Positions 16,282-44,240 of a stretch of DNA of 48,808 nt are shown here, piece by piece (the first letter of the stretch is position 1; every line of letters begins with the position of its first letter). The translations under genes were made by a program, and so were the position numbers. The stretch lies in IMG/VR virus record IMGVR_UViG_3300030389_003683, positions 1 through 48,808 of that record. One strand, given 5' to 3'. Source of the DNA: a virus. The notes under the pieces were generated by a model. That model saw only the letters and a program-made list of their open reading frames with translations. It was not told the DNA's origin and did no database searches.

Positions 16282-16485
16282 TCATAATGGTGTGTTAAGT
16301 AAAGAAAAAACTAATGTGCATAGACCGATTATTACTCCACCTGCTATACCAATTAATATTCTTTCAATTCTAGTAACTTGTGATTGTAAATCAGATATTT
16401 TATCATGAGTTTGTTTCTGCATGATTCGACATAATTTTTCATGATTATCAATTCTATTATGTGCTAACTCAGCTGTCTTAGGCAT
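16282..16485 (-). CDS. Small membrane protein, XhlA-like
   Basis: A 67-residue protein. Residues 10-42 are a charged coiled-coil (HDKISDLQSQVTRIERIL), followed by a C-terminal membrane helix at about 44-63 (IGIAGGVIIGLCTLVFSLL). The order of coiled coil then membrane helix matches XhlA/hemolysin-type phage proteins that help lysis. It could equally be a membrane-anchored virion accessory protein. It overlaps the large internal-virion-type gene by 8 bases. Confidence 0.6.
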   Translation of the reverse strand: MPKTAELAHNRIDNHEKLCRIMQKQTHDKISDLQSQVTRIERILIGIAGGVIIGLCTLVFSLLNTPL

Positions 16486-29737: not shown

Positions 29738-31222
29738 TTACCTAGCCGTTACTGGCACCGCGGTTCCAGAATCATTGCCTACAAACGGATTTTCTGCAAA
29801 AGCCATGTAGATGTATGTTTTAGCGCTTGCATTAACTCTGTCATTAGTTCCTCTCCATTTAAAACCATTAGAGACTATATCTAAAGCTTGAAATGATGCA
29901 GTTACTTCAGCAGCATTTGAATCTGGTAATAATGCATTTTGTATAACATTACTTCCTGGTCTTTTATTATCGTTTATATTCCAATTTTCTCCTGCATGAG
30001 ATGTGCATTTAGTCAAAACAAAAGCTGGAGCAAAGCCCGTATTAACAAATGTTCCATCTGTACTTCCATTCCCTGTATAGCTGCCAATTTTTGAGTAGCC
30101 TTTTTTTTCTGCGAAGCAGTAATATAATATAGATGGAGAGTTCCAAGTATTATCTGAACCTATAGTAAATACAGAACTTGTTGGAGAAGTTGAGTCCCAA
30201 AAAGTTGATGCAGAGATCTCTGCATTAGTTGCGTTTAAGTAAATACCTTTATCATTACCTATTGATTCATGATAACAAGTCCAATTATCTGCAGTATCTA
30301 AATCTTTACCTATAATAAATTTTGGTGTAGCACTTAAACCATGACCTATAGTTGCAACATTTGTATTTGATTTTGCTATTTTAACAATACTAAATCCAGC
30401 AGTAGTGTTAGCAGAAACTGTTGATTGAATACTGCCAGAAAAATTTGATGAGCCGTATGTAGAATTTGTATTAGCTTGACCACCCATACCACTGTGATAG
30501 TGACAGTAATAATAAAGCGTTGGTGCGGATGCAGCCACAGTAATTATTAATTTTCTGCTAGATGCAGCAGAATATCCTGATACATAAGCTGATTCGCTGA
30601 CAGTTGACCCATCTAGTTGATAAGTAACGCCTGTATTATATGAGGATCCTCCGCTATGTGTTCCTCCAGAAGTTGTAGATAACTTTATTGGATGAGATGA
30701 CATTGAGGAATCAGATCCGTCAAACGTATAAGTGCCACCCTCTTGTAAATCTAAAGTAACAGCACTTGTACCAAAATCATCAAATCTATATTTGTTTCCA
30801 CTATCAGAAACAACTTTTACTGAGTATGTTATGGCTGGTGCAGATCCACCAGATAACCAATTCCAAAAAACCCATGTTTCTCCGTTTTTACCAGCATTAT
30901 TTGATTTTGATGAACTATCATTTCCATTTTGAACAGTAATACCATCACTATCAATACTTGATATTGCTCCATTTGTGTTTGTTGTTATCTCTACGCCTGT
31001 ACTATTTGATGCTAACCAATTATAACTAGAAACTCCTCTAACTCTGTCAACTATCATATGTGTTCTTGCACCTGATCTACCTTTGTGCCAGACCCAATCT
31101 GGTGGAAAACCAACACCTGTAATCGATTGAGTATGTCCTGTTCCATCACTATCCTGTAAATCTCCTGTGTAAAGAACAGTGTTAAAATAATCTTCTGGTT
31201 TTGTAATCGAACTATAAGCCAT
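29738..31222 (-). CDS. DUF7483-like tail fibre with cupredoxin-like insertion
   Basis: A 494-residue beta-rich fibre-type protein. The N-terminal module (ITGVGFPPDWVWHKGRSGA, about residues 34-52) and the C-terminal TYIYMAFAENPF are shared with the protein at 32751-33812, its paralogue. Residues about 129-262 are absent from the paralogue and look like a cupredoxin: His177 after a Gly/Ser-rich strand, and Cys240-His-Tyr-His243-x-x-Met246 in YYYCHYHSGMGG. This ligand set is that of type I copper proteins. The insertion splits the sequence shared with the paralogue between WNWLSGG and TVSANTTAGFSIV. Host recognition is the likely role. Confidence 0.75.
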   Translation of the reverse strand: MAYSSITKPEDYFNTVLYTGDLQDSDGTGHTQSITGVGFPPDWVWHKGRSGARTHMIVDRVRGVSSYNWLASNSTGVEITTNTNGAISSIDSDGITVQNGNDSSSKSNNAGKNGETWVFWNWLSGGSAPAITYSVKVVSDSGNKYRFDDFGTSAVTLDLQEGGTYTFDGSDSSMSSHPIKLSTTSGGTHSGGSSYNTGVTYQLDGSTVSESAYVSGYSAASSRKLIITVAASAPTLYYYCHYHSGMGGQANTNSTYGSSNFSGSIQSTVSANTTAGFSIVKIAKSNTNVATIGHGLSATPKFIIGKDLDTADNWTCYHESIGNDKGIYLNATNAEISASTFWDSTSPTSSVFTIGSDNTWNSPSILYYCFAEKKGYSKIGSYTGNGSTDGTFVNTGFAPAFVLTKCTSHAGENWNINDNKRPGSNVIQNALLPDSNAAEVTASFQALDIVSNGFKWRGTNDRVNASAKTYIYMAFAENPFVGNDSGTAVPVTAR

Positions 31223-31227
31223 AATTT

Positions 31228-32751
31228 TTATCCATAAGTATTTAAGTTAGATGTATTTAACGCATAATAACCTGAAGGTACAGGGTACTCAAAGTTTCCA
31301 AATCCATTAGCGTCACTGTTTCCTGATGAAATTGTAAAAGCAGATTGTCCACCAAAATTCCAACCAGCAGTATAGGCTCTGCCACTTGAACCATCTGTTT
31401 GTAAAAAGAAATAAGTTTTTCCGCTTTCTATTGTAACATAACTAGACGGAGAACTACCACTCCAAGCATTTGAACCTGTCATCCAAGCACCGTTAAACGC
31501 CCAACTAATTCTGTTATTATCTAAGTCTAAAGCTATGCCAACAACACCATTATCTGAAATATTTGAATCTCCAGCTTTATCACCTAAATCAGTTGAACCA
31601 TTATAAACTGTTCCTGTTCCTATCATAAAATAGTGACCAGAATTTGAAATTGCTGGTGGAACAAGGTTTACATCTTCAACATAAGTAACACCAAAACCTA
31701 TTCTAAATCCATCATCATCTCCAGAGCCACCATCATAACTTATTCTTTTTGCTTCTGCGTACCATTTACCTTGTGATACTCCCATAGTTGAAATTATAGG
31801 ATTTGCATTAGAGGTATCTGTTGATATTTTAAGATTACCCTCAGCAAAAGTTGGTGCATTAGATGGAGGAACTGCTAATGAGTTCATAGTTGCATAATTC
31901 ACCACACATGTATCAGTTCCTTGATCCACGCTAGTTAGGTTAGTAGCGGTAAAATCGTTATTTTTTCCTGATGCATCATTACCTAAACTTGAACTGTCTT
32001 TAAAATCAAGGTAGAATGTGTTATTCCCCACATCTCCAACTCTACCTATTTTTTTAGGCTTCCATATTCCCGTTGTAGAGTCAGTCTCACCAAAATCAGT
32101 ATGTGCTAGCGCTAGGCCATCAACAAAAACTGCCTCCGCTATATAACCACTAAGTTTTTCTGAATTATTTGTGTATACTCCTAAATAGTGATTTACTGCT
32201 GTATTAAATTTTCCCGAATCATTTTGAGAATACTCAGTATTAGCTGCAAAAGATGTTACTTGAACACCATTTATATAAATTAAGGTTGATGGTGAACTTA
32301 TTGATCTATCAGATGAAACAAAGATATGATACCAAGCAGAGGTATCTCTAAATAACATGTTTGTTTTCTTTTGTAATTTATCTACACCACCAATGTGGTC
32401 ATAAATTTGTATTTGATCATCTGATGTAAATTTTAAAGTAGCGTTATTTGATCCATCATCTCCCACTCCAAAAAGTGTTTGATTACTTCCTAAAAGAGAT
32501 CTTTTTACCCACATTGAAATAGTATACTTATATTGATTTGTAGGTGTAACAAAAGTTTTTACTAAATAATCATTATTGCCATCTTCAAATCGACATGAGT
32601 TATCTATATTTTGAGGACCTGATGGCCATTGATTGTTGCTAACAAAAGTTAGAACATCATTCATTCTCCACACACCACCCGCTACTCCTGTCATTAATCC
32701 ACCTACAGGTGTATTTGTTGGTCCGATTATTCCTCCGTTTCTTCTTGACAT
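31228..32751 (-). CDS. Tail fibre with LamG and SPRY-like domains (copy 1)
   Basis: A 507-residue protein. The N-terminal anchor NGGIIGPTNTPVGG is followed by a LamG/concanavalin-like sandwich (about residues 45-235) with WYHIFVSSDRS and IYINGVQV. A SPRY-like domain follows (about 300-480) with WYAEAK and IALDLDNNRISWAFNG, and the end reads NFEYPVPSGYYALNT. The whole architecture repeats in the protein at 33812-35314, including the anchor and C-terminal signature. Carbohydrate or receptor binding is likely. It ends 1 base before the start region of its DUF7483 partner. Confidence 0.75.
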   Translation of the reverse strand: MSRRNGGIIGPTNTPVGGLMTGVAGGVWRMNDVLTFVSNNQWPSGPQNIDNSCRFEDGNNDYLVKTFVTPTNQYKYTISMWVKRSLLGSNQTLFGVGDDGSNNATLKFTSDDQIQIYDHIGGVDKLQKKTNMLFRDTSAWYHIFVSSDRSISSPSTLIYINGVQVTSFAANTEYSQNDSGKFNTAVNHYLGVYTNNSEKLSGYIAEAVFVDGLALAHTDFGETDSTTGIWKPKKIGRVGDVGNNTFYLDFKDSSSLGNDASGKNNDFTATNLTSVDQGTDTCVVNYATMNSLAVPPSNAPTFAEGNLKISTDTSNANPIISTMGVSQGKWYAEAKRISYDGGSGDDDGFRIGFGVTYVEDVNLVPPAISNSGHYFMIGTGTVYNGSTDLGDKAGDSNISDNGVVGIALDLDNNRISWAFNGAWMTGSNAWSGSSPSSYVTIESGKTYFFLQTDGSSGRAYTAGWNFGGQSAFTISSGNSDANGFGNFEYPVPSGYYALNTSNLNTYG

Positions 32752-33812
32752 TATTTTGCTGTCCCCGCTGCTTTAGTTCCTACTGTTGCAAATGGATGCT
32801 CTGCAAAAGCTATGTAGATGTATGTTAATCCACTTGTATTTATAGATGCACCTGTACCTCTAAGTTTGAAGCCATTTGATAAAAAATCAATTTTAGATGT
32901 TGATGTTGTTGCTTCAGCTCCCGCGTCGTTTGTTTGTAAAACTTGTTCTGCTGGATTATCAATATCTCTTTTATTATCTAAAATATGCCAATTATCTCCA
33001 CCTGTATCCGCTCTTTTTGTTATAACAAATGCTGGTCTAAATCCCGTGTAAACAAATGTTCCATCTGCGTTTCCATTTCCTTCGTATGTTGAAAATTTAG
33101 AATAACCTTGTTTTTCTGCAAAACAGTAGGATATATGAGTTTGAGAACTTTTATTTGTATCTCCTGAATTTCCAACTGTAAATACCGAACTTGTTGGGGC
33201 AGTGTCATTAAAATAACTAGATGAAGTAGTTGCTGCGTCAGTGCCATCTAAAAAAACTGCTTTTGTTGCACCTATACCTGCATGATAAGTTGCCCAGTTT
33301 TGAGTAGCACTTCTACATTTGTTTATAATCAAACTTGGTGCAACTCCCAAACCATGACCAACTGTAGCATTTGAGCCTGTGCCTGTATAAGACACAATAC
33401 TAAACCCTGCTATTGTATTAACTGAAACTGTTGATGTGATATCTCCATCTGAGTTTGATGATGTAGATCCACCCGCTAACCAGTTCCATGCAACATAAGT
33501 ATGACTCCCATCATTTACTCTGGCATCACTAGAAGAACCAGCACCTACTGTGAAACCATCACTTGTAAAAGCATCTAAATGACCATCAGATTTATCGGTT
33601 ACTTCTGCACCAGTACCATCTGATGAAAGAGTTTTATTTGCACCTCTTACTGCGTCAGCTAAAGTATGACCATTACTATCTGTTCTATTTTTTTGCCAAA
33701 CCCAATCTGGTTGAAAGCCAACTCCTGTTAATGTTCTTGGATTACTACCATTGCCAGAATAAGTAATAGTGTTAAAGAACAGTCCTGGGTTATCTATTGT
33801 TGTATAAGCCAT
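32751..33812 (-). CDS. DUF7483-like tail fibre, short copy without insertion
   Basis: A 353-residue protein built wholly of the DUF7483-like module (LTGVGFQPDWVWQKNRTDS near residues 28-46, VAWNWLAGGS near 107-116, AGFSIVSYTG, GHGLGVAPSLIINKCRS) and ending TYIYIAFAEHPF. It is the paralogue of the 494-residue fibre at 29738-31222 but lacks the cupredoxin-like insertion. It overlaps the adjoining LamG-SPRY gene by one base on each side. Confidence 0.75.
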   Translation of the reverse strand: MAYTTIDNPGLFFNTITYSGNGSNPRTLTGVGFQPDWVWQKNRTDSNGHTLADAVRGANKTLSSDGTGAEVTDKSDGHLDAFTSDGFTVGAGSSSDARVNDGSHTYVAWNWLAGGSTSSNSDGDITSTVSVNTIAGFSIVSYTGTGSNATVGHGLGVAPSLIINKCRSATQNWATYHAGIGATKAVFLDGTDAATTSSSYFNDTAPTSSVFTVGNSGDTNKSSQTHISYCFAEKQGYSKFSTYEGNGNADGTFVYTGFRPAFVITKRADTGGDNWHILDNKRDIDNPAEQVLQTNDAGAEATTSTSKIDFLSNGFKLRGTGASINTSGLTYIYIAFAEHPFATVGTKAAGTAK

Positions 33813-35314
33813 TATCCAAACTCCGCTAAGTTTTTAGTGCAAAGGGCAAAATACCCTGATGGCACTGCATATTCAAAATTACCATGTCCGTTAGCATCCG
33901 CATTACCTGATGAGATTGAATATGGTGGTGAGCCAAAATTTACTTGCATTTGATTCATGTAAGTTCCGTTTGTTGAGCCAAATGAAAAGTGAAAAAAACC
34001 AGATGCGTTCGTAACTCCTGACATGGAGTATCCACCTGTATTCGAAGACGGGTCGTCACTATCCGCCCAAGTTCCATTTTTACCTATGTAAAATTTATTA
34101 TTATCAATATCTACTGCTAACATACAAATGTCTCCACTTGCTGTCCAAGTTGATCCATAACCCACAGAAACGTTTGTATTATTAATTACAATATTTCCAC
34201 TATAATTTTCTGTTGCAATGTCTGTGCTTCTAAATCCAGCAGCATTATTATTACGTGCATTTTCAGAAGGATCTGTTGAAACTCCAGCTGATAAACTAGG
34301 ATTAGAAGTAGTTAAATTTTTTACTTCACAATACCATTTTCCCGTACTAAAACCTATTGAGCTACAACCATACCATCTAACGCCACCATCTGTAGCTCCC
34401 GCAATTGCTAAATTTCCAAGTTCATAAATTGGTTTTGTGCCTGATTGAAGATCTAGATTATTTAAAGTTGCAAAATTATTGCTTGGTGTATCAGTAGATT
34501 GATCGATACTTGTTAAATTATTAACAGTAAAATCATTTCCATTTCCTGAAGTATCATCACCTAAATTAGATGAATCAGAAAAATTTAATTTAAATCCATT
34601 ACCACCATATGTGCCTGCATACGGTATAGGCTCCCAAATATTTGTAGCAGGATTAAATGCACCAAAAGATGTTTGATCTAATGCTTGTCCATCAATAAAT
34701 ATCATTTCACAAATATACCCATCAAAATAATCACCCGTACCTTTTTGACCGATATAATTTGGATAATCATTATTAAATGAATTAGTGTCATTTTGTGAAT
34801 ATTCATTTGTAGTTGAAAAAGATGTTTCTTTTACGCCATTTACATATATCTCTGTTTCAGGTGAAGCAACTGAATTATCATTTGAAACAACTATGTGGTA
34901 CCAAGCTGAAGTATCTCTAAATACTCTATTGGTTACTTTTTGTAAAAGAAAAGAATTTCTATAATCATTAACTTCTAATCGATCGCTAGCATCAAATTTA
35001 ATCTGACTGGTAAAATTTCCACTAAATCTTGTACCTGCCATTATTTGTAGTGAACCTAAATTACATCTTTTTACCCAAAAAGAATATGTCCATTTATATA
35101 CTGCACCATTTGCGTTTGGTAATGTTAAATTTAAATAATCTGAACTACCATCATTAAACCTACACGTATTAGCAATGGTTGTTTGTGGAAAACCTAGAGG
35201 CCATATAGATGAAGATTGAGATTCAAATTGATCTTGTAAACTCCACACACCTGAAGCAACACTTGTAGTTGGTGTATTTATTTTTCCTATAATTCCACCG
35301 TTATCTTGGTTCAT
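33812..35314 (-). CDS. Tail fibre with LamG and SPRY-like domains (copy 2)
   Basis: A 500-residue paralogue of the protein at 31228-32751: N-terminal anchor NGGIIGKINTPT, LamG-like sandwich with WYHIVVSNDNS and IYVNGVKE (about 140-170), a SPRY-like domain with WYCEVK and LAVDIDNNKFYIGKNGTW, and the end NFEYAVPSGYFALCT. The two copies are diverged along their length but share all signatures in order, so the duplication is old. It is the first gene of the fibre set. Confidence 0.75.
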   Translation of the reverse strand: MNQDNGGIIGKINTPTTSVASGVWSLQDQFESQSSSIWPLGFPQTTIANTCRFNDGSSDYLNLTLPNANGAVYKWTYSFWVKRCNLGSLQIMAGTRFSGNFTSQIKFDASDRLEVNDYRNSFLLQKVTNRVFRDTSAWYHIVVSNDNSVASPETEIYVNGVKETSFSTTNEYSQNDTNSFNNDYPNYIGQKGTGDYFDGYICEMIFIDGQALDQTSFGAFNPATNIWEPIPYAGTYGGNGFKLNFSDSSNLGDDTSGNGNDFTVNNLTSIDQSTDTPSNNFATLNNLDLQSGTKPIYELGNLAIAGATDGGVRWYGCSSIGFSTGKWYCEVKNLTTSNPSLSAGVSTDPSENARNNNAAGFRSTDIATENYSGNIVINNTNVSVGYGSTWTASGDICMLAVDIDNNKFYIGKNGTWADSDDPSSNTGGYSMSGVTNASGFFHFSFGSTNGTYMNQMQVNFGSPPYSISSGNADANGHGNFEYAVPSGYFALCTKNLAEFG

Positions 35315-39424: not shown

Positions 39425-39976
39425 CTATTTTTTTGCTTTACCGCCTCTTTTCATGTAACCCATTTTATTTCTTACACGAGTTGGCAATTTAGCTAGACCT
39501 GGATTTTTTTCTTTGTCTACAGCTTTTAATCCACCTTTTTTCATTTCAGAAGCTCTTACTCTTCTTGCTGCTTCTGCAACACCGCCACCCATCTTAGCCA
39601 TAGGTTTAGGTTTACCTTTACCAACAAGATCTTTTAATTTTTTTCTCATTCTTCTTAATCTATCTGCACCAACAGTAACTCTGCTTTTCATTTCTCCCAC
39701 TCTTCCAGAATCAGCACCACCACCTTTACTATATCTTTTCATCATTCCACCACCCATTTTACCCATAGCTAACTCTTTTTTCTTTTTCATAGCTAAGCCA
39801 GCAAGCATTTTACCCATGCCACCTTTTATTTTATCAGTGCTTCCAGATTTTTTACCCATCATTTTTTTTGCAGCCATAGCGCCTAACGCGCCTAAGGCCA
39901 ATGCACCCATAGCCATTTTTTTAGGTTTCATACCCATGGCCATTCTTTTTTTCATACTTATTTTTGATTTGTCCAT
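39425..39976 (-). CDS. Lys/Met/Gly-rich basic virion protein (putative)
   Basis: A 183-residue protein, strongly basic and rich in Lys, Met and Gly. Residues 20-45 are hydrophobic (MGALALGALGAMAAKKMM). KKGG occurs near residue 144 and GGGVAEAARRVRASE near 128. It ends in a Lys/Arg/Gly tail. This low-complexity basic composition suggests DNA or membrane contact in the virion. It overlaps the 332-residue basic gene by one base. No catalytic domain is recognised. Confidence 0.6.
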   Translation of the reverse strand: MDKSKISMKKRMAMGMKPKKMAMGALALGALGAMAAKKMMGKKSGSTDKIKGGMGKMLAGLAMKKKKELAMGKMGGGMMKRYSKGGGADSGRVGEMKSRVTVGADRLRRMRKKLKDLVGKGKPKPMAKMGGGVAEAARRVRASEMKKGGLKAVDKEKNPGLAKLPTRVRNKMGYMKRGGKAKK

Positions 39977-40974
39977 TAAAATACTCCTTTAAAGTTATGT
40001 CCTTTGACTGCTATGCCAGTTCCTCTCGCACCGCCATTTACAGATCCGCCTCCAGCTCTATTGTAGACTCTTTTTTTGTACTCTTTCATAAAGGAGCTAC
40101 CTTTACCTTTTAAACGAATTCCTTTTTTAAGTGGTCTTCTTTTACTTAACTCTCCAAATGTAGTTTTACCTGTTATTCCACCTGCTGCTTTTTTAACAAT
40201 TGTTGATAACATTTTTGCTTGACCAGCGTGAAGTTTAGAAGCTTTTTTTAAACCACCTATAACTTTTTTAATTTTTGCCTCTCCTCCTTTTTTCTTTTTT
40301 TCCATTATAATCATAATGCCATCAGCTTTTTTCATACCACCCTTTTTCATCCCTGATTGTCTTTCTTTCATATTTTTTAAATATGGTGGTAATTTTGGCT
40401 TAGGTCTTGTTGGATCTGTTTTAGGATCTGGATATATTGTTTTTCTAGGTTTTTTTCTTCGTCTACCTGGTAAGCTTCTTATACCACCCATCGCCATACC
40501 TAATTCTTTTTTAAGCTCTTCTAATCTTTTTTGTTTTTTTGTAACATTTTCTTTTAATCTATCTTTATCTTTTTGTTTTTCAGTAGGTTCTCCAGCTTCA
40601 ACATTTTTTCTTTTACCAAAAAGACCTGCCATACCACCACCCATCAATTTTTTAACTTTAGCTTCATCTCTAGCTCTGGCTGCTTTTACTTTTTTTCCAG
40701 TCATATATTTTCTCATTTGTGTTACTGGAGATAAACCCTTTAATAAACTAAAAGTTTTAGGTGTCTCCTTTTTCATTTTATCTTTTACTTCTTGTTTAAC
40801 AGAATATTTAGGTTCCATAGCTCCACCTTTTTTAAACCCCATATGCTTTTGACCTGTTTTTCTCATTTCACTCCTTTTTTTATTAGTGAATCTTCTTTTA
40901 GTTAATGCTTTAACAATTCTTTCCCTTCCAAACCTATCTATCATGTCAGAAATTGTAATTTTTTTCTTAGCCAT
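39976..40974 (-). CDS. Large basic low-complexity virion protein (putative)
   Basis: A 332-residue Lys/Arg/Gly-rich protein with several KKGG elements (FKKGGAMEP near residue 49, MKKGGMKKADG near 213). The C-terminal end GGARGTGIAVKGHNFKGVF resembles a short module repeated in marine-phage basic proteins. Residues 85-160 form a charged helical part. No enzyme motif is seen. Its very high charge suggests binding of packaged DNA. AGGAGAG lies before the ATG at 40974. Confidence 0.6.
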   Translation of the reverse strand: MAKKKITISDMIDRFGRERIVKALTKRRFTNKKRSEMRKTGQKHMGFKKGGAMEPKYSVKQEVKDKMKKETPKTFSLLKGLSPVTQMRKYMTGKKVKAARARDEAKVKKLMGGGMAGLFGKRKNVEAGEPTEKQKDKDRLKENVTKKQKRLEELKKELGMAMGGIRSLPGRRRKKPRKTIYPDPKTDPTRPKPKLPPYLKNMKERQSGMKKGGMKKADGIMIIMEKKKKGGEAKIKKVIGGLKKASKLHAGQAKMLSTIVKKAAGGITGKTTFGELSKRRPLKKGIRLKGKGSSFMKEYKKRVYNRAGGGSVNGGARGTGIAVKGHNFKGVF

Positions 40975-41018: not shown

Positions 41019-41156
41019 TTATCTCGTTCTACTAATATACTTTCTTTTACGTTTGTTGTCTACCAACCGTTTTTTCTTTCTCATGGCTTTGGATGGTCTA
41101 CCACCTCTTAGTTGACCAGATATTTGTTGTGGTATTTGTGCTCTACTGATTGGCAT
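41019..41156 (-). CDS. 45-residue basic protein
   Basis: A short gene beginning at a TAATG overlap with the end of the peptidase gene (41156). The product starts MPISRAQIPQQISGQLRGGR and continues as a Lys/Arg-rich tail. Similar MP-SRAQIP-type basic peptides occur in other marine phage contigs. It ends 44 bases before the start region of the 332-residue basic gene. The function is unknown. Confidence 0.65.
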   Translation of the reverse strand: MPISRAQIPQQISGQLRGGRPSKAMRKKKRLVDNKRKRKYISRTR

Positions 41157-41632
41157 TAAAATAAGTCCATTGCTTTACCAACTATTGGTTTATATGCAGT
41201 TTTACCGTTTTTTTTATATGCATGTAAGTATTGTGCTCGTCTACCCTCTGGTATCCAAGAACAATGAACCCACCCTGAGTTGGGTTCGCCAGGCGTAAAA
41301 AATTCGAGAATGAGCTGATCTGGTTCTAGGTTTTTAAAAATCCAATCAGATAATTCAGCATTACTTGTGCCAAGCACTTCGAAATCGGCCGCCTCTGCCC
41401 GTGCATGTTGTGACTCGATCGAGCTACCTATGGCTAGGCACAATTTTGGTGATCGGAAACAGCTAGTCACCTTAACCCTGCCAAAGTGATCACGAACCGG
41501 TTGTAATATATTTTCGCATAATAATCTAAGTTTTGTTATTTGATCAGAATTAGGATTATTATCAATCCCAAGCCTAATAGCTGTGTCTGATTTAATTAAT
41601 TCTTGAAGGGTAAAATTACGTGTTAAATTCAT
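41156..41632 (-). CDS. Peptidase M15-type endolysin
   Basis: A 158-residue zinc peptidase of the M15 (VanY/DacA-like, M15_3-type) family that cleaves peptidoglycan stem peptides. The zinc ligands are visible: His76 and Asp83 in SQHARAEAADFEV, and His123 in GWVHCSW. The N-terminus (MNLTRNFTLQELIKSD) matches the family and there is no signal peptide, so export must be through a holin-type protein of the same cassette. It overlaps the upstream gene by 4 bases. Lysis at the end of infection is the likely role. Confidence 0.88.
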   Translation of the reverse strand: MNLTRNFTLQELIKSDTAIRLGIDNNPNSDQITKLRLLCENILQPVRDHFGRVKVTSCFRSPKLCLAIGSSIESQHARAEAADFEVLGTSNAELSDWIFKNLEPDQLILEFFTPGEPNSGWVHCSWIPEGRRAQYLHAYKKNGKTAYKPIVGKAMDLF

Positions 41633-42291
41633 ATTTTATTTGAGTCATCTGGTGGGTTTTGTATTTCATAAAACATTTTATCTGTATCCTCTGTTATCCA
41701 GTCTTTGTTTTCAACCGACCAATAAGTTGTCTGAACTTTGTAATCGGGCCACTCTCTAGAAACAGTATAATTAGACACGTTCCATAAAATCCTATTATTA
41801 GGCTGAGCTGCAAAATTGCCGTTATCAAGAGCCAAAATATGATGACACTTGTGCTCATCAGGTATTTCAGAGTGTTCAGTATCAATTTCATTAACCTCTG
41901 GAGTAGCCCAGTCAATAGTGAAAAGATATTCTCCATGATAAAATTTTTTGTCTAATCCTAAATATTTACCTTTTTGACCACCTAAAAAATCAAACTCAGT
42001 GCAACTAGGGTAATAGCTAAAACTATTCCACAGCTCAAGCTCTTCCACTCGCATATCGGGCACAGAGGGTCTCTCAAATGATTTTTGAAAAAACGCTGAA
42101 ATAGGCAATCTCCAATAACAAGCCCCGTTCGGTAGCATGCAATGGAATAAGAGGGCACGACCTGTAATACCTGCCATAGCGAAGATAACACAGTCCATGT
42201 CTTGTCCTTTATATTTTTCATCCATGTCATAAAGATACTCCTTTCGTACTTTTGCATAAATTGTTGGTATATTAATATTTAAGTATGCCAT
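41629..42291 (-). CDS. Conserved phage protein in lysis cassette, unknown function
   Basis: A 220-residue protein, beginning AYLNINIPTIYAKVRKEYLYD, with GRALLFHCMLPNGACYWRLPI (about residues 44-64) and TEFDFLGGQKGKYL. Many Tyr/Trp/Phe and a beta-rich pattern are seen. I recall this family from marine phages beside the lysis genes, where it has no established function. There is no membrane segment. It overlaps the peptidase gene and the preceding small gene. Confidence 0.65.
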   Translation of the reverse strand: MAYLNINIPTIYAKVRKEYLYDMDEKYKGQDMDCVIFAMAGITGRALLFHCMLPNGACYWRLPISAFFQKSFERPSVPDMRVEELELWNSFSYYPSCTEFDFLGGQKGKYLGLDKKFYHGEYLFTIDWATPEVNEIDTEHSEIPDEHKCHHILALDNGNFAAQPNNRILWNVSNYTVSREWPDYKVQTTYWSVENKDWITEDTDKMFYEIQNPPDDSNKI

Positions 42292-42500
42292 CAGTCAAGT
42301 ATAAGCTTTTTAATAGATTTTTCACCCATATAAATTTCTGTTTCAGCTTTACTTTTAATACATTTATAAGTTACATTTGGCGTAAATTGTCTTTCAGCAT
42401 GACGCTTTCCACGAAGACATGAAGCCATGTTATCTTGGATACGATGCTCCTTGATCTCTGCTCCTACAAACATAATTAGGGCGACCACAGTCTCAATCAT
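42291..42500 (-). CDS. Small protein with N-terminal membrane segment
   Basis: A 69-residue protein. Residues 1-14 (MIETVVALIMFVGA) are hydrophobic and followed by a charged Lys/Arg/His-rich part (ASCLRGKRHAERQF), so it may be membrane-attached. GAGG precedes the ATG at 42500, which overlaps the end of the 26-residue membrane gene. In the lysis cassette it could be a holin or regulator, without direct evidence. Confidence 0.6.
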   Translation of the reverse strand: MIETVVALIMFVGAEIKEHRIQDNMASCLRGKRHAERQFTPNVTYKCIKSKAETEIYMGEKSIKKLILD

Positions 42501-42573
42501 ATTTCCTCACATAAATTAAAATAAATAATATTATTATTGAAAATGCAATACCTATAAAAAATAAATTAATCAT
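42493..42573 (-). CDS. 26-residue single-pass membrane peptide
   Basis: A very short gene. Its product is a membrane helix (residues 4-21, rich in Ile, Leu, Phe) ending in VRKYD. The ATG overlaps the stop of the preceding coiled-coil gene as ATGA (42570-42573), and its 3' end overlaps the start of the next gene by 8 bases. This placement, between overlapping neighbours in a lysis cassette, makes it a holin-like candidate. It is too small to call by homology. Confidence 0.55.
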   Translation of the reverse strand: MINLFFIGIAFSIIILFILIYVRKYD

Positions 42574-42992
42574 TGACCACTTCCATTTTTATAAACAATC
42601 TCCCTATTTTTATCTTTAAGCTCTTCGATATCTATTAGAGCTTTATCAAGTTGTTTTCTTATAAATTCTATATTAACTTTATTATGCATTCCATCTTCAA
42701 TAGCTTTGTTTAAACGATCTACGGACTTATACAAATCCTCCACTAACATGTAGAGCTCTTGTTCTCCAGATGATTGACCTAATTGTCCCCTAGGATATTT
42801 GATTCTAAACTCAGAGTTAGCTTCTAAATCTTTAGTCATCAACTCTAATTGAGTTGACATTTTGTTTTGCTTTTCAATAATACCGAAATAAGCCCAGGTG
42901 CCAATCGAGACCATGATGATCAGACTAGCAACCGTCTTCATAGGCATCTGCACGGCTGCCTCCTCCGATAACTTGAGTGGCTTATTGGACAT
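42570..42992 (-). CDS. Membrane-anchored coiled-coil protein (holin or inner-membrane spanin candidate)
   Basis: A 140-residue protein. A single membrane helix lies at about residues 20-39 (TVASLIIMVSIGTWAYFGII) and a coiled coil follows (about 40-140) with a PRGQLG turn. The N-terminus starts MSNKPLKLSEEAAVQMPMK. The ATG at 42992 has GGAGG five bases upstream, so the longer GTG start at 43004 is unlikely. I recall this arrangement from marine phages next to M15 endolysins. One membrane helix with a long periplasmic coiled coil fits an inner-membrane spanin; a class III holin cannot be excluded. Confidence 0.7.
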   Translation of the reverse strand: MSNKPLKLSEEAAVQMPMKTVASLIIMVSIGTWAYFGIIEKQNKMSTQLELMTKDLEANSEFRIKYPRGQLGQSSGEQELYMLVEDLYKSVDRLNKAIEDGMHNKVNIEFIRKQLDKALIDIEELKDKNREIVYKNGSGQ

Positions 42993-43074
42993 GTGGTCCT
43001 CCACAGAGAGCCAAGACAGTTAACATTACAATCAGTATACCTGTAAAATAATAATTCATCTTGGCAGTCTCCAT
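42982..43074 (-). CDS. 30-residue hydrophobic peptide, lipoprotein-like
   Basis: A small gene with AAGGA before the ATG at 43074. The product has a hydrophobic stretch (YYFTGILIVMLTVLALC, residues 8-24) ending in LALC, a loose lipobox-like Cys, then GGPHV. It overlaps the start of the 140-residue coiled-coil gene by 11 bases. An outer-membrane spanin needs a longer tail, so a very small holin or leader peptide is more likely. Confidence 0.5.
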   Translation of the reverse strand: METAKMNYYFTGILIVMLTVLALCGGPHVQ

Positions 43075-43079
43075 AAAAA

Positions 43080-43157
43080 TTATCCTTTAAGCCAATTATG
43101 TATTTTTATAAATGGCCATTTTATCCAACGCCAAATATCTTTAAGTATTTTTTTCAT
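43080..43157 (-). CDS. 25-residue Trp/Lys-rich amphipathic peptide
   Basis: A very short gene with a clear ribosome binding site (GAGGT five bases before the ATG at 43157). The peptide has four Trp and many Lys/Ile (MKKILKDIWRWIKWPFIKI at residues 1-19), an amphipathic, cationic pattern like membrane-active peptides. It overlaps the end of the Cys-rich gene by 17 bases. Membrane disruption during lysis is suggested by composition and by the cassette, not demonstrated. Confidence 0.6.
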   Translation of the reverse strand: MKKILKDIWRWIKWPFIKIHNWLKG

Positions 43158-43272
43158 CTTTTACCTCTTTGCATAAACATTCAGAACAAGTGCATAAATC
43201 ACCATCATAATGATGTGCGTGAAGCTCTTCATCGCAATGACAATCACAGTGGCAATTTTCACACTTAGACAT
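43141..43272 (-). CDS. 43-residue Cys/His-rich metal-binding peptide
   Basis: A small gene beginning right after the stop of the gene at 43274-43579 (TAA, one base, ATG). The peptide has nine Cys and five His in 43 residues, in CENCHCDCHC (4-13) and CTCSECLC (27-34), with an acidic linker between and a basic end. The spacing suggests two metal clusters, as in metallothioneins, or a small redox protein; no exact family match is claimed. The ribosome binding site is weak, but coupling to the gene upstream is possible. Confidence 0.6.
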   Translation of the reverse strand: MSKCENCHCDCHCDEELHAHHYDGDLCTCSECLCKEVKDEKNT

Positions 43273-44179: not shown

Positions 44180-44212
44180 AAAAAAAGGGGCGAAGTAAAT
44201 ACTCCGCCCCTC
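44180..44212 (-). terminator. Intrinsic terminator after the capsid gene
   Basis: On the minus strand a GC-rich hairpin, AGGGGCG-G-AGT, loop, ACT-T-CGCCCCT (44186-44211), is followed directly by seven T bases. This lies about 30 bases after the capsid gene stop. It is the clearest intrinsic terminator of the window and probably reduces transcription of downstream genes below that of the capsid gene. Confidence 0.85.
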
Positions 44213-44240
44213 TTTATCTTTTTAAGCTTGATTAATCGGC

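Follow-up and report, generated by a model that had tools for sequence, protein, structure and literature searches.

A conserved block of micro-genes around the M15 endolysin of a pelagiphage-like virus, and a holin candidate encoded outside it

The endolysin gene of an uncultured pelagiphage-like virus lies within a run of very small, closely packed genes. This raises the question of whether these genes are real and, if so, whether they supply the remaining parts of a lysis system. The window (the whole stretch of DNA analysed, 48,808 nt) is a complete IMG/VR virus record, and its relatives with known hosts are Pelagibacter phages. An earlier note, made from the letters alone, had described nine tightly packed genes running from 43272 to 41019, five of them with products of 25-45 residues. 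All nine ORFs were found at 41019-43272 on the minus strand, with neighbours overlapping by 1-17 nt or lying 5 nt apart, and the five small ones (43, 25, 30, 26, and 45 aa) were located among them. The features discussed here are the following.

43141..43272, minus strand: cys43, 43-aa Cys-rich protein with CxxC/CHC motifs; pN/pS 0.23, relatives in 63 fetched loci
43080..43157, minus strand: trp25, 25-aa cationic amphipathic Trp-rich peptide; net charge +6, helical moment 0.63
42982..43074, minus strand: hyd30, 30-aa hydrophobic leader-like peptide; leader sequence common to exported proteins
42570..42992, minus strand: cc140, 140-aa protein with an N-terminal transmembrane segment; phrog_20984
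42493..42573, minus strand: mem26, 26-aa single-transmembrane peptide; pN/pS 0.24
42291..42500, minus strand: m69, 69-aa partner of cc140; phrog_24646, predicted soluble fold
41629..42291, minus strand: p220, 220-aa beta-rich protein; phrog_3704
41156..41632, minus strand: Peptidase M15_3 endolysin (M15), 158 aa; PF08291
41019..41156, minus strand: bas45, 45-aa basic protein of the [AP]I[ST]RxQ..Q(I/V)xGxxRG family; family relatives
16282..16485, minus strand: 67-aa XhlA-like protein with a C-terminal transmembrane segment; best holin candidate

Shine-Dalgarno-like sequences precede trp25 (GAGG), hyd30 (AAAGGA), cc140 (GGAGG), and m69 (GAGG). The block sits between head and tail genes and is therefore probably expressed late. 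A strong terminator-like hairpin (44182-44215; 15 pairs, T tail) separates the major capsid gene, which it directly follows, from the block. Right after the block, positions 39425-40974 encode two proteins of 332 and 183 aa that are very rich in Lys, Met, and Gly and are of a type that recurs in related loci. The genes at 29738-35314 encode large proteins that form two related pairs (500/507 aa and 353/494 aa) in alternation; they are probably tail or adhesin genes that have been duplicated. A search of Rfam gave no match, and promoter-like sites occurred at chance frequency.

Families of the tiny ORFs were collected by iterated profile searches, and pN/pS was calculated from same-length alignments; 326 loci had been fetched at the first family analysis, 244 once near-duplicates were removed. 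Among close relatives, substitutions in the tiny-ORF families are mostly synonymous, with pN/pS of 0.11-0.30, figures that are descriptive, as the sequence pairs are not independent. The exact trp25 family has a ratio of 0.11 (8 distinct sequences, purged of off-frame p220 ORFs, with which the ratio is 0.89), and two other Trp-peptide subfamilies have ratios of 0.30 and 0.24. The values are 0.23 for cys43, 0.29 for hyd30 (counted outside its overlap with cc140), 0.24 for mem26, and 0.27 for bas45. The four larger genes (cc140, m69, p220, and M15) lie at 0.22-0.25, with cc140 at 0.23 and M15 at 0.22. Ratios this low make chance ORFs very unlikely. As judged from variation among relatives, the five tiny genes are genuine and under purifying selection, and the proposal that they are real holds.

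The 158-aa gene of the block was correctly read as an M15 endolysin. It carries a PF08291 domain (53.6 bits against a cut-off of 23.2, E 2.7e-14) and matches the endolysin family phrog_894 (E 2.1e-37). The protein starts MNLTRNFTLQ, with no signal peptide or anchor apparent. An endolysin without a signal needs a holin, and the same would therefore apply to M15. The gene that precedes it in the window, p220, belongs to a family labelled 'ferredoxin' in PHROGs, and its relative in HTVC027P is labelled 'PurM'; the beta-rich model of p220 supports neither, and its matches in the PDB are weak and Tudor-like only.

cc140 (phrog_20984, E 1.6e-32) and m69 (phrog_24646, E 8.8e-33) travel together. Each has matches in 45 records of the phage collection, every one of which is labelled as a Pelagibacter phage, an uncultured phage, or simply 'phage'; m69 is present in 40 of 40 cc140 records among the matches listed, and the two genes are direct neighbours 133 times in the environmental loci. 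In the isolates, the pair lies just ahead of the terminase genes (HTVC019P), directly precedes DNA maturase A and B (HTVC041P), or is near the M15 endolysin (HTVC010P and HTVC034P). cc140 consists of a short N-terminal part, one transmembrane segment near the N-terminus, and a long C-terminal part that is probably helical or coiled-coil, in agreement with the membrane-anchored coiled-coil protein first proposed. The other small protein to which a membrane segment had been ascribed, m69, is instead predicted to be a soluble fold: its AlphaFold2 model (mean pLDDT 87.7) is a beta-beta-alpha-beta-beta domain in which the hydrophobic N-terminus forms a strand. m69 has two invariant Cys, and comparison of the model with solved folds in the PDB gave no match. 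We dropped m69 as a secreted antiholin of the T4 RI kind because the modelled N-terminus is a beta strand and neither a signal nor a transmembrane segment is predicted. cc140 as a holin like T4 T was downgraded after XhlA-like and multi-pass proteins were found nearby in isolates. Uncultured-phage relatives of cc140 carry the annotation 'fibrinogen-like coiled coil, host recognition', a label of Mizuno et al. 2014 (PMC3909814). At L070:4744-4995 and in about 20 other loci, the gene of a transmembrane protein of 83 aa that probably has a coiled coil (tm83) overlaps the start of cc140 by 1 nt; tm83 is absent from the window.

The search for a holin leads out of the block. A hydropathy scan of the window gave few transmembrane proteins, namely hyd30, cc140, mem26, and the XhlA-like 67-aa protein (phrog_38642); the remaining hits lie opposite other ORFs or within soluble proteins. 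The XhlA-like protein scores 14.2 bits against Pfam PF10779, below the gathering score of 34.7, which counts against a holin. The best member of its family reaches E 0.0048 with XhlA, and XhlA is the best named Pfam family for 8 of 26 members, through weak matches. The named PHROG matches, hemolysin (5) and holin (2), are weak but consistent. In relatives, a protein of ~970 aa, probably a virion protein, is followed by the XhlA-like gene and then M15, and the last two overlap or almost touch. Of 103 distinct XhlA-like genes, 37 have an M15 start between -30 and +20 nt from their stop, and a further 4 have M15 within 400 nt. Such adjacency is probably how the lysis genes of these phages are more usually arranged. 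At L394:3001-3660, L395:3001-3660, and similar loci, M15 follows the XhlA-like gene at once, sharing a few bases with it, where the gene of a ~980-aa protein ends. In L194, L192, L189, and L245, a 54-aa transmembrane gene (MTANFGIGMFFYGMTCIFIGAIIAYFIINK...) lies directly before M15, at least in L194 and L245 between it and the XhlA-like gene; it is a possible second holin component. In the window, the XhlA-like gene is 25 kb from M15. As an exonuclease-like gene comes next after it in the window's lineage and M15 lies inside the micro-gene block, the phage keeps its holin candidate apart from its endolysin. Some isolates have a multi-pass membrane protein (phrog_2524) near cc140, which could be the holin there and would speak against the XhlA-like protein; the window has no phrog_2524 protein. 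Overall, the sequence comparisons make the XhlA-like protein at 16282-16485, outside the block, the best holin candidate for M15.

The peptide trp25 belongs to a variable class of cationic amphipathic peptides with a fixed position. Members of the class were defined as peptides of 20-40 aa that have a net charge of +3 or more, contain one or more Trp, reach a helical moment of 0.45, and have a Shine-Dalgarno-like site. These criteria were chosen post hoc, with the family already known, and the weight therefore rests on the positional and strand controls. Up to 500 bp upstream of cc140, 63 such peptides occur in 90 kb, as compared to 0-0.13 per kb more than 1.5 kb away; the same 500-bp scan of the opposite strand gave none. 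Altogether, 79 loci have the class upstream of cc140 (82 hits, a few probably by chance), preceded by strong ribosome-binding sites such as GAGGAG. The helical moments resemble those of melittin and magainin. Neighbouring Cys-rich ORFs were counted with in-frame fusions included. In 14 loci, the Trp peptide forms the C-terminal end of a Cys-rich ORF, in frame and with a strong ribosome-binding site inside that ORF. A separate Cys-rich gene precedes it in 5 loci, which is the arrangement of the window, and 13 loci have an ORF scored as Cys-rich after it. Mutual exclusion between Trp peptides and exported or transmembrane coiled-coil proteins was looked for and not seen, and tblastn of trp25 and cys43 against the phage collection gave nothing useful. 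Within the window, no spanin candidate with a lipobox and a ribosome-binding site was found, so the phage may be spanin-less, yet cc140 could be a non-canonical spanin. It is plausible that trp25 is a lysis helper of the disruptin kind.

Our preferred reading, held tentatively and at a little short of an even chance, is that the block is a genuine, translationally coupled micro-gene cluster of a SAR11-type phage, made of cc140-m69, M15, and exchangeable tiny membrane-active peptides, with the XhlA-like holin, M15, and a disruptin-like trp25 as the lysis route. The XhlA-like protein would open the inner membrane and M15 would next cut the peptidoglycan. trp25, perhaps together with its Cys-rich partner and cc140, would then help to disrupt the envelope in the manner of a disruptin, and peptides of its class would be late envelope-disrupting helpers. 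The genes are real, conserved, and co-located, a holin-like gene adjoins M15 in relatives, and the trp25 class is positionally fixed; the functional steps beyond these points are what we infer. Besides the low Pfam score of the XhlA-like protein and the phrog_2524 protein of some isolates, two results count against this reading: the surroundings of cc140 in the isolate loci scanned contain no Trp-class peptide, one spurious hit aside, and the helices that end Cys-rich ORFs in 14 loci could equally be membrane anchors rather than free lytic peptides. We regard as somewhat unlikely the broader proposal that SAR11-type phages fill a fixed slot directly upstream of cc140-m69 with fast-changing cationic peptides of 20-40 aa that bear Trp and resemble antimicrobial helices, each encoded by a tiny gene of its own or translated from a start within the frame of a Cys-rich protein, and that these would be a new, widespread family of lysis effectors replacing spanins.

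The micro-genes may instead serve late or host-interaction functions unrelated to lysis (membrane-targeted Cys-rich factors, superinfection exclusion, or host take-over), with M15 in a variable insertion slot. The gene before M15 indeed differs between relatives (p220, m69, XhlA-like, oxygenase-like, and others), and in HTVC027P the cc140 region adjoins the DNA polymerase. Cys-rich and Trp peptides are also fused in the 14 loci mentioned. Set against this, pelagiphages of unrelated types keep cc140-m69 close to an endolysin gene, an XhlA-like gene, or packaging genes, and we consider this alternative to be fairly unlikely.

A self-contained lysis cassette, in which the 26-, 30-, and 140-aa membrane proteins of the block would include holin and antiholin beside the endolysin, we take to be unlikely. 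The hydropathy scan predicts a single transmembrane segment in each of hyd30, mem26, and cc140, and all three are under selection and coupled to M15 via p220. The holin gene 17.5 of T7 occupies the position just before the packaging genes, where Autographiviridae pelagiphages place cc140-m69. However, a separate XhlA-like gene adjoins M15 in relatives, m69 has no predicted membrane segment, and mem26 was recognised in only 8 loci. hyd30 (MNYYFTGILI...) is elsewhere the leader of exported proteins of about 175-230 aa encoded upstream of cc140, including gp14 of HTVC027P; the window keeps the leader alone, without the exported domain. The last codons of hyd30 (GGAGGACCACATG) contain the ribosome-binding site and start of cc140, and hyd30 is still under selection ahead of this overlap. 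The bas45 family, which comes after M15 in many relatives, has no membrane feature that we could see. What had been suggested for two or more of the tiny genes, that they are holin, antiholin, or spanin parts, thus stands in part: the genes are real and coupled to a true M15, and cc140-m69 lies in a lysis or packaging neighbourhood in isolates, but no tiny peptide can be assigned to any of these roles, given the XhlA-like gene directly preceding M15 in relatives and lying outside the block, hyd30 being a leader of exported proteins, and the window having no lipobox candidate.

That cc140, alone or with the exported protein bearing the hyd30 leader (~180 aa), acts as a non-canonical bridge of the spanin type to remove the outer membrane would fit its layout of short N-terminus, single transmembrane segment, and long, probably helical C-terminus, as well as the exported family or its leader directly upstream of cc140 in many loci, but is quite improbable for the window, which has the 30-aa leader without an exported domain and no lipobox partner that we could find.

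Pelagiphages are among the most abundant viruses. The papers that we searched name neither a holin nor a spanin for these phages and describe their lysis by a peptidase M15 or a lysozyme only (PMC10504331 and PMC6811365). The preferred route proposes candidates for each envelope layer: the XhlA-like protein as holin, M15 as endolysin, and, at the outer membrane, cc140 or the peptides resembling antimicrobial ones. A class of 20-40-aa genes likely to be missed by standard annotation emerges as well. Should these peptides act on membranes, dozens of natural variants would allow a direct test of what phages without spanins use.

Three known systems offer a comparison. The layout of cc140 resembles the inner-membrane spanin of the Rz-Rz1 pairs of lambda and T7; unlike these, cc140 has no lipoprotein partner among the genes found in the window. 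With the PBSX system XhlA-XhlB-XlyA (PMC5589764), the XhlA-like protein shares an amphipathic N-terminus, a C-terminal transmembrane segment, and, in relatives, a gene directly before the endolysin, and some relatives insert the 54-aa transmembrane gene between the two. It differs in falling below the Pfam XhlA cut-off and, in the window, in its distance of 25 kb from the endolysin. The disruptin, an amphipathic antimicrobial peptide, is encoded by phages that lack spanins (PMC12819732), and phiKT is named as its archetype in a passage of that paper citing Holt et al. 2022. In its peptide properties, trp25 is likened to it as a short cationic amphipathic predicted helix (25 aa, net charge +6, moment 0.63), and its phage likewise has a Gram-negative host and encodes an endolysin. 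No spanin gene with a lipobox was found in the window, though cc140 could be a non-canonical spanin. Unlike the disruptin, the trp25 class is 20-40 aa long, bears Trp, and is sometimes fused to a Cys-rich domain.
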